DNA of 56,556 bases. Source: Parvibaculum sp. (GTDB lineage: Bacteria; Pseudomonadota; Alphaproteobacteria; Parvibaculales; Parvibaculaceae). Shown here in pieces: positions 50,833 through 55,133 of the stretch; positions within the stretch are counted from its first letter, which is position 1, and each line of letters begins with the position of its first letter. The notes beneath the pieces are model-generated. The model worked only from the letters and a program-made list of their open reading frames with translations. It was not told the DNA's origin and ran no database searches. A program made the position numbers and the translations under genes. Where the stretch lies: positions 1 through 56,556 of the forward strand of contig NZ_NYVD01000107.1 in assembly GCF_002684405.1 (NCBI RefSeq), written 5' to 3'.

Positions 50833-51480
50833 TCACTGATCTTTCGGCGGAACGCGGCAGCAGCCGCGAACTATGCGGTAGGAGAGGCTCGTGCGGGAAT
50901 CGGGGGGTGTCTGGCGAAAAGTCAGGGAGACTTTCCATCCATAGCGCGCATCGCTCATCCCGTCGGAACAGCTTCTGGTGGCGTGTATGATGGCTTTCCC
51001 GGTTCCGTTGTCCAGGCTGATGCTTCCCTTCCAGGGGGCGCCGGACGCGCTATCGATGGCGAGCGTGTCGCCCGATATGGTTTCCACACCGGAGAGAATT
51101 ACCTCGCTCTCGGAAAACTTGGCCGACCAGAACGGCTCCGTGCCCCAGCACTGGAACCCCTCCGGAAGGTTGAGCGTCTTGTTCATCCGTGGCGCATAGG
51201 GAGCGAGATAGGCCATGGAGACCCAGCCAGTGCGACCGTTTGCCGAGACGCGGGCCCAGCCGTGATCCGTTTCGAAAACCTCGATCGGTTTGGCATGCGG
51301 ACCGAAACTGCCTATCTGGTCGGCCGCCGCCGAAGGCTTTGCACGCACCATGAGCATGTCGTCATCGGCTACATGCGCCACCCGGTAATAGCCCACATCG
51401 CCGATCTGCTCCGCCGATGCGGGGGAGATGACAAAGAATGACAACATAATTGCCATCAAAGTAGCGTGGCGGATCGGCAT
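50833..51480 (-). CDS. Secreted SH3-domain protein with COG3650-like C-terminal domain
   Basis: A 215-residue protein with a signal peptide (about 1-23, ASA-EQ). Residues 25-95 form a bacterial SH3 domain (MLMVRAKPSAAADQIGSFGPHAKPIEVFETDHGWARVSANGRTGWVSMAYLAP), which often binds murein. The rest has CWGTEPFWSAKF, the COG3650-type motif, and two later cysteines. ATG 51480 has GAAAGG upstream. The 98 bp before it hold its promoter and end where the comM repeat starts. Confidence 0.8.
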   Translation of the reverse strand: MPIRHATLMAIMLSFFVISPASAEQIGDVGYYRVAHVADDDMLMVRAKPSAAADQIGSFGPHAKPIEVFETDHGWARVSANGRTGWVSMAYLAPYAPRMNKTLNLPEGFQCWGTEPFWSAKFSESEVILSGVETISGDTLAIDSASGAPWKGSISLDNGTGKAIIHATRSCSDGMSDARYGWKVSLTFRQTPPDSRTSLSYRIVRGCCRVPPKDQ

Positions 51481-51578
51481 GAAGAAAAACCTTTCTCGAT
51501 CGGAGCATCCACAAATGACACCGTGGCGGGGTATCGACAAGCCTCAAATATTCGTCCTCCCGGATCGTCCGTAGGGAT

Positions 51579-51755
51579 CCTTTTCGTTCTTGACTGAAAC
51601 CTCTCTTTCACGCGAGCCTTTCTCCATAACAGGATATCGGGCGAGGGTAGAGGCAGGCGGGGACTTTCCACGGTTGCGCATGTCGGAACGATGGATTTTC
51701 AGGGGCGTCAAAGCGCGGCCCATCAAGGCGCAGATCCGCGCCGTAGGTTCTCAAA
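51579..51755 (+). pseudogene. Decayed copy of the comM promoter and 5' end
   Basis: This stretch aligns with 53482-53660, the promoter and first 25 codons of comM. The first 22 bases (51579-51600 = 53482-53503) are identical. TTTCTCCATAAC is shared at 51619-51630 and 53522-53533. The comM ATG (53586) is ACG here (51670-51672), followed by the shared GGTTGCGCAT and TTTTCAGGG. One extra G in GGGGCG shifts the frame. About 18 bases present in the intact copy are missing. Similarity fades after about 51755. Confidence 0.75.
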
Positions 51756-51856
51756 CCGCTCATTCAGTCATTTCAGGGGCGCGCGTAAAATCGCCGTCCT
51801 GTTGCCTCGTCCTGAGTTCTGAGGATTGCGACGGACCATCATTGTCAAGGTGTGTT

Positions 51857-53449
51857 ATGAGAATAATAGTTCTGCTTTCTGTTTTGTTTTCGTGTCTTTT
51901 TCTAAATAGCTCGATATCCAGAGCAGACACTTTCTATATTACTTTCAAGAACACCGGTAACGAGGACATTTCCTACACGATGGCAACACGCCGCCTGGCG
52001 ATGTTTGGCTGGCGCGACTGGGAAGCGAAAGGGTGGATCAAGCTCAAAGCCGGCGAGTTCCACCAGGCTTTTTACGGCGTCAACGAACAGGTCGTTTTCG
52101 CGTTCAAGAAGCGCGGCGGCTACGTGGTCTACAGCATGAAAGGGGGAGGCGGGAGCAAATGGCTGGATGGCTGGCACGTCGCCCCGAAAAAGAAGTTTCG
52201 ATATTCGTTTCGCAGGAAAAGCTCCAGAAGTTCGAAACTCACGGACTACATAAAATCATCTTTCGGCTATCGCTATGAGCCCATGGGGTTCGGCACCAAT
52301 CATATGGTGCGAGAGCACGTCAATATTCCGTCCTACAAATCCGACAAGGTAATCCCGTTCAAAAGCACGCAGGAAGCGGCAGTAGAAGCCAAGAAGGAGC
52401 CGGTATTTCCTCCGAATGCGCTCCAGCGACTGGACTCCCTGCTGCGGAAACATTTGTCGGGCTCGGTCTGTGACGGAGGCTTCTTCGTCATGAAACATCC
52501 GAGGGGCGCTGTCCGGGTTACGAAGAATGGGGAAATACAAGTCAAGGGTCGGCAGTATTATAGTAATAAAAAAAACAAGGTAACATCGACGGGTGACATG
52601 CATTCGGTTCGTCTGGAAGAAGCTGTTTCCTTGGATTTTGCCCGACAAAACGAATGTTACCGAATTGACATCAGATGTGAAAAGCGTAGTGATTGTGCGA
52701 AGTCTTTTAAAACAACGGAAAAACGATCCTATAAATTAAGGCTGAGTTCTTTTAATCTTTATTTCAACTCACCCGAAGCCGCAAATGAAGTGGGCGCAGA
52801 GCTGGCGTCCCTTCTTGGCAAAAAGGTGAAAGTATCCGAACCGTTTGCCATCAAGGAAAAGGCGGCTCCCGCCGAAGCCGAGAAACCCGAAAAACCGAGA
52901 AAGACATTGGCGAGGGATTATGGACCGTACTGGCTGATCCCTCTCGCCGGTTTCGCATTCATCGTTTTTGCCGGCGCGCAGTCGCTTCGGCAAGGTGGCG
53001 TTCGCAAGGGCGCGCGGACGGTCTCCTTCTTTGACGGGAGTTCCCGGACGAGTCATGCGGCGTTCCTTCTGGCGACAATTGTCGGGTACGCCGTCTATCT
53101 TCTTTCGGCAATTCTTCTGTCCCTCTTCTTCGATGTTGAAGGTGCCGACATTTTCAGCGCCCCGGCTTCGGAAATACTGGAGGCAGTGGCGGTCTTGTCG
53201 ATCGCTTTTGTCTTGCTTGTCGCTTCCGGATATTTCCTGATCGCGACGGATCTGAGGAACAAGTACACGACAAAGAAGAGGATATTCTTTGTTTCCCTTG
53301 TCGTTTATGCCGCCCTGGTTTTCATCATCGCAGGACTAATGCCCTATGACCGTTTTTGGGGGCTTGGCCTGTTCTTTGTTGCGGCGCTCACGATCCTTTC
53401 CGCCTTGCCCTTTGCGGTGACGTGGATAGGGAGGCGGCGCCACGGGTAG
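51857..53449 (+). CDS. Unrecognised exported membrane protein, foreign composition
   Basis: A 530-residue protein I cannot assign. A signal peptide (MRIIVLLSVLFSCLFLNSS, cut near SRA-DT) leads into a domain (24-140) with WRDWEAKGWIKLKAGEFHQAF, which faintly recalls DUF1036. A Lys-rich middle with four cysteines (CDGGFF, ECYRIDIRCEKRSDC) follows, then an Ala/Glu/Pro/Lys linker (330-350) and five predicted helices (about 358-377, 400-425, 440-465, 474-496, 500-524). Base composition is far from the neighbours: 52681-52740 has about 20 G+C of 60. It lies between the two comM 5' copies, so it looks inserted. ATG 51857 is preferred to the open stretch upstream, which is comM remnant. Confidence 0.8.
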   Translation: MRIIVLLSVLFSCLFLNSSISRADTFYITFKNTGNEDISYTMATRRLAMFGWRDWEAKGWIKLKAGEFHQAFYGVNEQVVFAFKKRGGYVVYSMKGGGGSKWLDGWHVAPKKKFRYSFRRKSSRSSKLTDYIKSSFGYRYEPMGFGTNHMVREHVNIPSYKSDKVIPFKSTQEAAVEAKKEPVFPPNALQRLDSLLRKHLSGSVCDGGFFVMKHPRGAVRVTKNGEIQVKGRQYYSNKKNKVTSTGDMHSVRLEEAVSLDFARQNECYRIDIRCEKRSDCAKSFKTTEKRSYKLRLSSFNLYFNSPEAANEVGAELASLLGKKVKVSEPFAIKEKAAPAEAEKPEKPRKTLARDYGPYWLIPLAGFAFIVFAGAQSLRQGGVRKGARTVSFFDGSSRTSHAAFLLATIVGYAVYLLSAILLSLFFDVEGADIFSAPASEILEAVAVLSIAFVLLVASGYFLIATDLRNKYTTKKRIFFVSLVVYAALVFIIAGLMPYDRFWGLGLFFVAALTILSALPFAVTWIGRRRHG

Positions 53450-53481
53450 TGAGGGGTGCGAGCTGTCCTGTTGACAGGTTC

Positions 53482-53660
53482 CCTTTTCGTTCTTGACTGA
53501 AACAGCTGATTCACGCGAAGCTTTCTCCATAACCGGACGTCGAGCGCCGAACCGGGCGATCGATCAGGGCGGGTGGGGGCTTTTCATGGTTGCGCATATC
53601 GAGACGGTGGCTTTTCAGGGCGTGGATGCGCGCCCCGTCGACGTGCAGGTGCAGATCGCG
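53482..53660 (+). repeat. Right copy of the direct repeat flanking the inserted gene
   Basis: Partner of 51579-51755, about 1.9 kb away in the same orientation. It holds the presumed comM promoter and intact first 25 codons. The identical 22-base block contains CTTGACTGAAAC; I find no clear -10 at the usual distance. Just upstream, CCTGT-TG-ACAGG (53467-53478) forms a small dyad close to the left edge of the repeat. Confidence 0.75.
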
Positions 53661-55133
53661 GGCGGCATGCCGGCCTTCACCATTGTGGGTCTTGCCGACA
53701 AGGCGGTGGGCGAAAGCCGCGAGCGCGTCCGCGCCGCGCTGTCGGCCATCGGCCTGGGGCTTCCGCCCAAGCGCATCACCGTCAATCTCGCACCCGCCGA
53801 CCTGCCCAAGGAAGGCTCGCATTACGACCTCCCCATTGCGCTGGGCCTGCTCGTCGCCATGGGCGTTCTGCCGGCGCAGGAAATGGAAAAATTCGTGGTC
53901 ATCGGCGAATTGTCGCTCGACGGCGCGGTGAACGCGGTCGCCGGCGCGCTGCCCGCCGCCATGGCGGCCAATGCGCGCGGGCGCGGTCTCATCTGTCCGG
54001 AAGCCTGCGGCCCGGAAGCGGCCTGGGCCGGCATGGATGGCGACAATCCCGGCGGCGTCCTCGCGCCGCGCTCCATCATCCAGCTCGTGAACCACGTCAA
54101 GGGAACGCAGATCCTGTCCGAACCGGCCCCGATGAAGGCCGCCGAAGAGCCCAATGCGCCGGACCTGCGCGACATCAAGGGCCAGGCCTCCGCCAAGCGC
54201 GCGCTGGAACTGGCCGCCGCCGGCGGCCATAACATGTTGATGGTCGGCCCGCCCGGCTCCGGCAAGTCCATGCTGGCCGCGCGCCTGCCCGGCATCCTGC
54301 CGCATCTCTCCCCGCGTGAAATGCTGGAAGTTTCCATGATCGCCTCCATTGCCGGCGAACTCATGACCCACGGCATGGGCAGGCGCAGGCCCTATCGCGC
54401 GCCGCATCATTCCGCCTCCATGCCCGCGCTGATCGGCGGCGGTCTGCGGGCAAAGCCCGGCGAGGTCTCGCTCGCTCATCGTGGCGTGCTCTTTCTGGAC
54501 GAACTGCCCGAATTTCCCCGTCAGGTGCTGGATTCGCTGCGCCAGCCCCTCGAAACCGGCGAGGCCGTCGTCTCCCGCGTCAATGCGCATGTCAGCTATC
54601 CCGCCCGCTTCCAGCTCGTCGCGGCGATGAACCCGTGCCGCTGCGGCCATGCGGGCGATGCCGCCCGCGCCTGCCCGCGGGTGCCGCGCTGCGTGGCGGA
54701 TTATCAGGCCAAGCTCTCCGGACCCCTGCTCGACCGCTTCGACATTCATGTGGAAGTGCCGCCGGTTTCGGCCGCCGACCTCTCTCTGCCGCCGCCCGCT
54801 GAAGGCTCGGCGGAGGTCGCGGCCCGCGTTGCCCGGGCGCGGGACGTGCAGGCCGACCGCTTCGCGTCGCTGGGCGCGAAACATCTGAGCCTCAACGCGC
54901 ATGCCGAAGGCGAATTGCTGGAGAAAATCGCCACGCCCGACGATGCAGGCCGGACCCTGCTGACGGAGGCCGCGGAGCGCATGGGGCTCACCGCGCGCGG
55001 TTATCACCGCGTCATTCGTGTCGCTCGGACGCTCGCCGATCTCGAGGGTGCCCGGGGCATCACGCGCCTTCATATCGCGGAGGCGCTCTCTTATCGCGAG
55101 CCTGTCGGGGCCCGCCTCGGCGCAGCCGCGTAA
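53586..55133 (+). CDS. comM: Mg chelatase-like AAA+ ATPase ComM/YifB
   Basis: ComM is a hexameric helicase that extends branch migration during natural transformation. The 515-residue protein has the N-terminal lon-like fold ([41 protein letters not shown]), Walker A [9 protein letters not shown] near residue 220, Walker B [10 protein letters not shown], and a four-cysteine zinc loop in [22 protein letters not shown]. The gene is intact despite the partial copy upstream. comM is a known island insertion site in Acinetobacter, which fits the inserted gene next to it. Confidence 0.95.
   Translation: [515 protein letters not shown]

Follow-up and report, generated by a model that had tools for sequence, protein, structure and literature searches.

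A predicted exported membrane protein encoded behind a decayed duplicate of the 5' end of comM in Parvibaculum

In a Parvibaculum sp. contig of 56,556 nucleotides, the whole of which was analysed and is called the window here, a single gene of atypical composition stands directly upstream of comM. This raises two questions: how the gene came to this place, and what its protein may do there. The gene (51857-53449), its parts, the decayed comM copy to its left, the LexA-like operator and comM itself all lie on the forward strand.

The gene and its protein

The gene starts with the ATG at 51857, which is directly preceded by a ribosome-binding-like AAGGTG within the leader (51734..51856), stops at 53449 and encodes 530 amino acids, in agreement with the initial annotation. 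An alternative ORF of 619 amino acids with a TTG start at 51590 was rejected, its additional part being comM-derived leader only. The foreign composition that had been ascribed to the gene is borne out by its GC content of 0.514 and GC3 of 0.605 (mean GC3 of the other chosen ORFs of the window 0.772, sd 0.043), and it ranks lowest in GC3 as well as in codon likelihood, which makes its codon use the most atypical, among 55 window ORFs picked by a simple GC-by-position rule and not by annotation. Promoter and terminator scans and an Rfam search yielded nothing useful.

Translation and hydropathy delimit a signal peptide (residues 1-23; 51857..51925), in which a hydrophobic N-terminus leads to the signal-peptide-like site SRA-DTF. 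The exported part, about 330 residues long (from residue 24 to about 355), consists of two modules. Module 1 (residues 24-165; 51926..52351) is beta-rich, faintly DUF1036-like and devoid of cysteines, and its residues 39-150 are strongly diverged between the two species in which the gene was found (see below). Module 2 (residues 166-350; 52352..52906), which may resemble PH-like domains, is 95% identical between them and Lys-rich (23 of the 186 residues 165-350), and it holds all four cysteines found outside the signal peptide (205, 267, 274 and 280). The membrane part (residues 351-530; 52907..53446) has five predicted helices: hydropathy and a low-confidence model agree in placing five hydrophobic stretches beyond residue 357, within the last 175 residues. 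The signal peptide, the Lys/Cys-rich middle and the C-terminal helices, about five in number, of the initial description were thus all recovered. Since the loop charges fit a periplasmic N-terminal part and a cytoplasmic C-terminus, we infer that the protein resides in the inner membrane with both exported modules in the periplasm. Structure prediction, which had been suggested as a check, was of no help: the mean pLDDT of the AlphaFold models was 35.8 for the whole protein and 30.5 for module 1, making them unusable.

The layout had been described as unfamiliar, and it stayed outside known families. Searches of Pfam, NCBIfam, PADLOC, PHROGs and PDB sequences gave no match above the curated cut-off or clearly significant, and no strong full-length match to a known family appeared in the profile libraries searched. 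Several weak candidates were considered and rejected. DUF805 (PF05656), proposed for the membrane part, scored 16.3, which was equalled or exceeded by 13 of 200 shuffles (alignment of 9 of the 11 loci fetched); DUF2776 (PF10951) reached 16.2 bits for the whole protein and 19.2 bits for the membrane part against a cut-off of 26.1; the Mu transposase C-terminal domain, ABC2, CtsR, PHROG 950 and NF045937 were weak matches, under the cut-off or without support.

The faint DUF1036 look claimed for the N-terminal domain stands as a weak resemblance and fails as a family assignment. Comparison of module 1 by hhalign with 16 Parvibaculaceae DUF1036 domains (from 30 loci fetched) matched 25 columns around a GW motif with a probability of 18%; the score of 24.8 exceeded the maximum of 200 column shuffles (19.9; 0/200 reached it) and that of the reversed control (11.8). 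No row for PF06282 itself (cut-off 23 bits) came up, whether for the whole protein (E up to 1) or for module 1 (E up to 10), and module 1 lacks the four cysteines that never vary among the aligned DUF1036 domains (positions 8, 40, 73 and 87 of the first sequence). The search for PF06282 members in the window's genome found only two copies, both on another contig (C92). A distant fold relation rather than membership is therefore possible. PMC10687234 lists a DUF1036 member among interaction hubs, as one that was reported to be essential in Liberibacter crescens.

The comM relic and the cassette

To the left of the gene and its leader lies a second, decayed version of comM's promoter and 5' region (51579..51733, the right end being approximate), identified by direct repeats, alignments and a DNA search of the genus. 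It matches 53482-53620 in two blocks, the direct repeats D1 (85%) and D2 (81%), and contains a -35-like TTGACT and about the first 25 comM codons, damaged by the change of the comM ATG to ACG and by one extra G that shifts the frame. The resident comM (Mg-chelatase-like ATPase; 53586..55133) is intact, with 515 amino acids and matches to PF01078, PF13541 and PF13335 obtained on a longer comM ORF. The relic was found in the same arrangement in Parvibaculum indicum (DSM 25305): each species has an intact comM directly after the gene and the decayed comM 5' copy to the gene's left, and in the genus-wide DNA search the relic leader occurred only in these two genomes, besides matches at comM 5' ends. 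With the relic preceding it, the gene forms a one-gene cassette between relic and intact comM. The initial annotation had called it a single cargo gene at a known island site. A single cargo gene next to comM it is, the insertion being upstream and comM itself uninterrupted.

The left end of the relic falls inside a LexA-like operator. Upstream of the resident comM this operator, GTTC-N7-GTTC (53478..53492), is intact, and we take it to be the alphaproteobacterial LexA-type site. It was found upstream of comM in 28 of the 30 other genomes scanned (missed in G031 and G027), three loci (L028, L031 and L032) having been left out of the scan; in one genome (G003) an insertion puts about 2.7 kb between the motif and comM. 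Passages of PMC6473078 name a GTTC consensus group and place comM in the SOS core set of alphaproteobacteria (PMC6473078). The gene's presumed promoter lacks the full operator: the relic retains the right half GTTC and has GGAT in place of the left (GGAT-N7-GTTC), and the P. indicum relic has GGAC-N7-GTTC and an additional deletion of about 32 bases. At 61 sites the relic differs from the resident comM, and the genus majority sides with the resident at 42, as expected of a decaying relic, and with the relic at 15 (4 ties). Those 15 sites show that the relic either split off early or originated in another lineage.

The description of the place as an island site was likewise supported: comM or the gap upstream of it carries insertions in other Parvibaculum genomes. 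In four of them (G001, G026, G004 and G003; loci L104, L105, L106 and L108) comM is in pieces or truncated, and in three of the four the inserts between the comM pieces measure about 4 to >30 kb; comM and its upstream gap are thus insertion-prone in Parvibaculum. In G003 (L108:8130-10740) an element that has inverted repeats at its ends and carries a transposase-like ORF, presumably IS1595-like, lies between the LexA-like box and comM. In G018 (L110:5770-6291) a small exported protein, weakly similar to the VHL beta domain (18.2 bits against a cut-off of 21), is encoded upstream of comM on the opposite strand. Further to the left, between the GFA gene and the relic, the window holds an SH3-domain protein gene (50833-51540) and the equivalent P. 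indicum gap (L003:7716-9547) two other membrane-protein-like genes, which indicates that this gap is variable, too.

Distribution, mosaic divergence and selection

The P. indicum protein, 89% identical and encoded in the corresponding position just before comM, is the sole clear homologue found. Homologues were present in 2 of 27 genomes of the genus, 2 of 40 of the order and 2 of 61 relatives, one of each two being the window's own genome and the genome sets (relatives, order, genus, class, phylum) overlapping; a search of the genome_contigs collection found one homologous locus. Profile searches of the class (385 genomes) and the phylum (398 genomes) each added one short membrane-helix match, in G170 (16.9 bits) and G608 (18.4 bits). 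These matches, covering one or two helices, look like composition, and the G170 ORF was rejected as a transporter by eye. Outside G000, matches to module 1 or 2 (E 0.004-0.1) came from 8 of 190 genomes and from 16 of 385; they were short, frame-broken or in ORFs that look unrelated, and were dropped, as was a second weak module 1 match in G000, on contig C129. No homologue was found in the plasmids, phages and viral contigs searched, and a search of the open-licence literature under DUF1036, comM, LexA, Parvibaculum and superinfection exclusion found no paper on the gene. The gene is lineage-restricted, so far only in two Parvibaculum species.

Divergence between the two alleles is unevenly distributed. 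The rate of synonymous substitutions (dS) is 0.93 for residues 39-150, 0.09 for residues 166-350 and 0.11 for residues 351-530, and it takes intermediate values in the host genes gshB (0.46), dipeptidase-like (0.60), pyridoxamine-oxidase-like (0.74), LprI-like (0.45), GFA (0.59) and comM (0.34). At the nucleotide level, identity is about 90-95% in the relic leader, 84-96% in the signal region, 74-84% in module 1 and mostly 92-100% 3' of it, with a few 50-base blocks at 84-88%; as the relic leader on its left is that similar, module 1 stands out as strongly diverged between two better conserved stretches. The best single boundary is codon 146, with a chi-square of 61.3, which 0 of 500 permutations reached (permutation maximum 23.4). 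This dS contrast within the gene and relative to the host genes argues that recombination at about codon 146-152 separated module 1 from the rest. Either module 1 would have been joined to a core of other history, or all but module 1 would have been homogenised, two courses that are indistinguishable because only two alleles are known. Codons 1-50 of comM are nearly identical between the species (dS 0.055; window 53586-53735 against L003:11713-11862), and dS climbs along comM to 0.7-1.1 at its end, so the recombined tract seems to run on into comM.

The ratio of non-synonymous to synonymous rates (dN/dS) is 0.19 for residues 39-150, 0.26 for residues 166-350 and 0.34 for residues 351-530. Values this far below one indicate a functional protein under purifying selection. 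That the gene is left over from a mobile element since lost, or is an orphan in decay that no longer has a function, is unlikely because of this selection, the frame being open in both species and the ribosome-binding-like site retained, for all that the foreign composition, the adjoining comM relic and the lack of partner genes would fit such a remnant.

Possible roles and known systems

The locus, then, is a one-gene cassette for an accessory protein that is under selection and restricted to this lineage, its N-terminal part exported and its predicted inner-membrane anchor made of five helices. As to its role, we tentatively prefer that of an accessory factor for recognition or exclusion at the envelope. 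Module 1 would recognise a variable thing outside the cell, such as part of a phage, a toxin from a competitor or some other ligand that changes, and module 2 together with the membrane bundle would provide a constant activity, such as a block to entry or the neutralisation of an incoming agent at the membrane. Transcription would start from the comM-derived promoter, with SOS control weak or absent because the relic operator lacks its left half. We infer the recognition step from the topology and from the mosaic outward module, the latter being indirect support.

Several observations count against this role. Module 1 is under purifying and not positive selection; the mosaic is a single contrast drawn from two alleles, from which repeated swapping does not follow; and constitutive sensors, transporters and chaperones can be mosaic as well. 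Profiles of defence, toxin or immunity proteins gave no match, with 0 PADLOC-DB families matching at E up to 10 and hence none of the known anti-phage defence proteins, and no defence neighbour was found. The recurring defence or secretion neighbours that had been suggested as a pointer to function were not seen at the locus of the sole homologue.

Another reading, about as probable, is that of a niche gene for envelope maintenance or transport (of lipid, metal or peptidoglycan), its mosaic structure being due to ordinary homologous recombination in a variable gap. Purifying selection on every module, the conserved Lys- and Cys-rich module 2 and the filling of the gap upstream of comM by different unrelated genes in different species are consistent with it, but the profile searches linked the protein to none of the transporter or maintenance families and the distribution is very narrow. 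Less probable is an envelope sensor or signalling protein akin to 7TMR-DISM, in which an exported ligand-binding part on the helical bundle would act through a partner inside the cell. The P. indicum protein matches PF07695 weakly (E 0.003; 17.9 bits against a cut-off of 29), but the window protein has no match, and its cytoplasmic side offers just short loops and a short charged tail.

Extending the recognition or exclusion reading, which remains our preferred one, the two genes might represent a new protein family for exclusion or immunity at the envelope, modular in build, with an exchangeable outward domain on a constant Lys/Cys module and membrane bundle, that spreads among Parvibaculum as a one-gene cassette reusing the comM promoter and 5' piece as promoter and landing homology; we consider this improbable in its full form. 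If the outward module is truly exchanged among strains, the gene would point to a system of envelope recognition in Parvibaculum that has not been recorded before, and further alleles would be sought beside comM. At the minimum, the locus is a clean case of gene gain in which part of the promoter of a core gene was captured and now precedes the newcomer.

Three known systems can be compared with this locus. With 7TMR-DISM receptors the protein shares the order of an exported N-terminal part and then a bundle of membrane helices, whereas it has five predicted helices instead of seven, no output domain and a score under the cut-off. DUF1036 (PF06282) resembles module 1 weakly, over the 25 profile columns around the GW motif, but here the domain is present in a single copy and fused to the Lys/Cys module and the membrane bundle. 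AbaR islands occupy comM in Acinetobacter; like them, the cassette is accessory DNA with comM as a neighbour, but unlike in AbaR-type islands comM is intact here, the insert lies upstream of it and the comM 5' end is partly duplicated.
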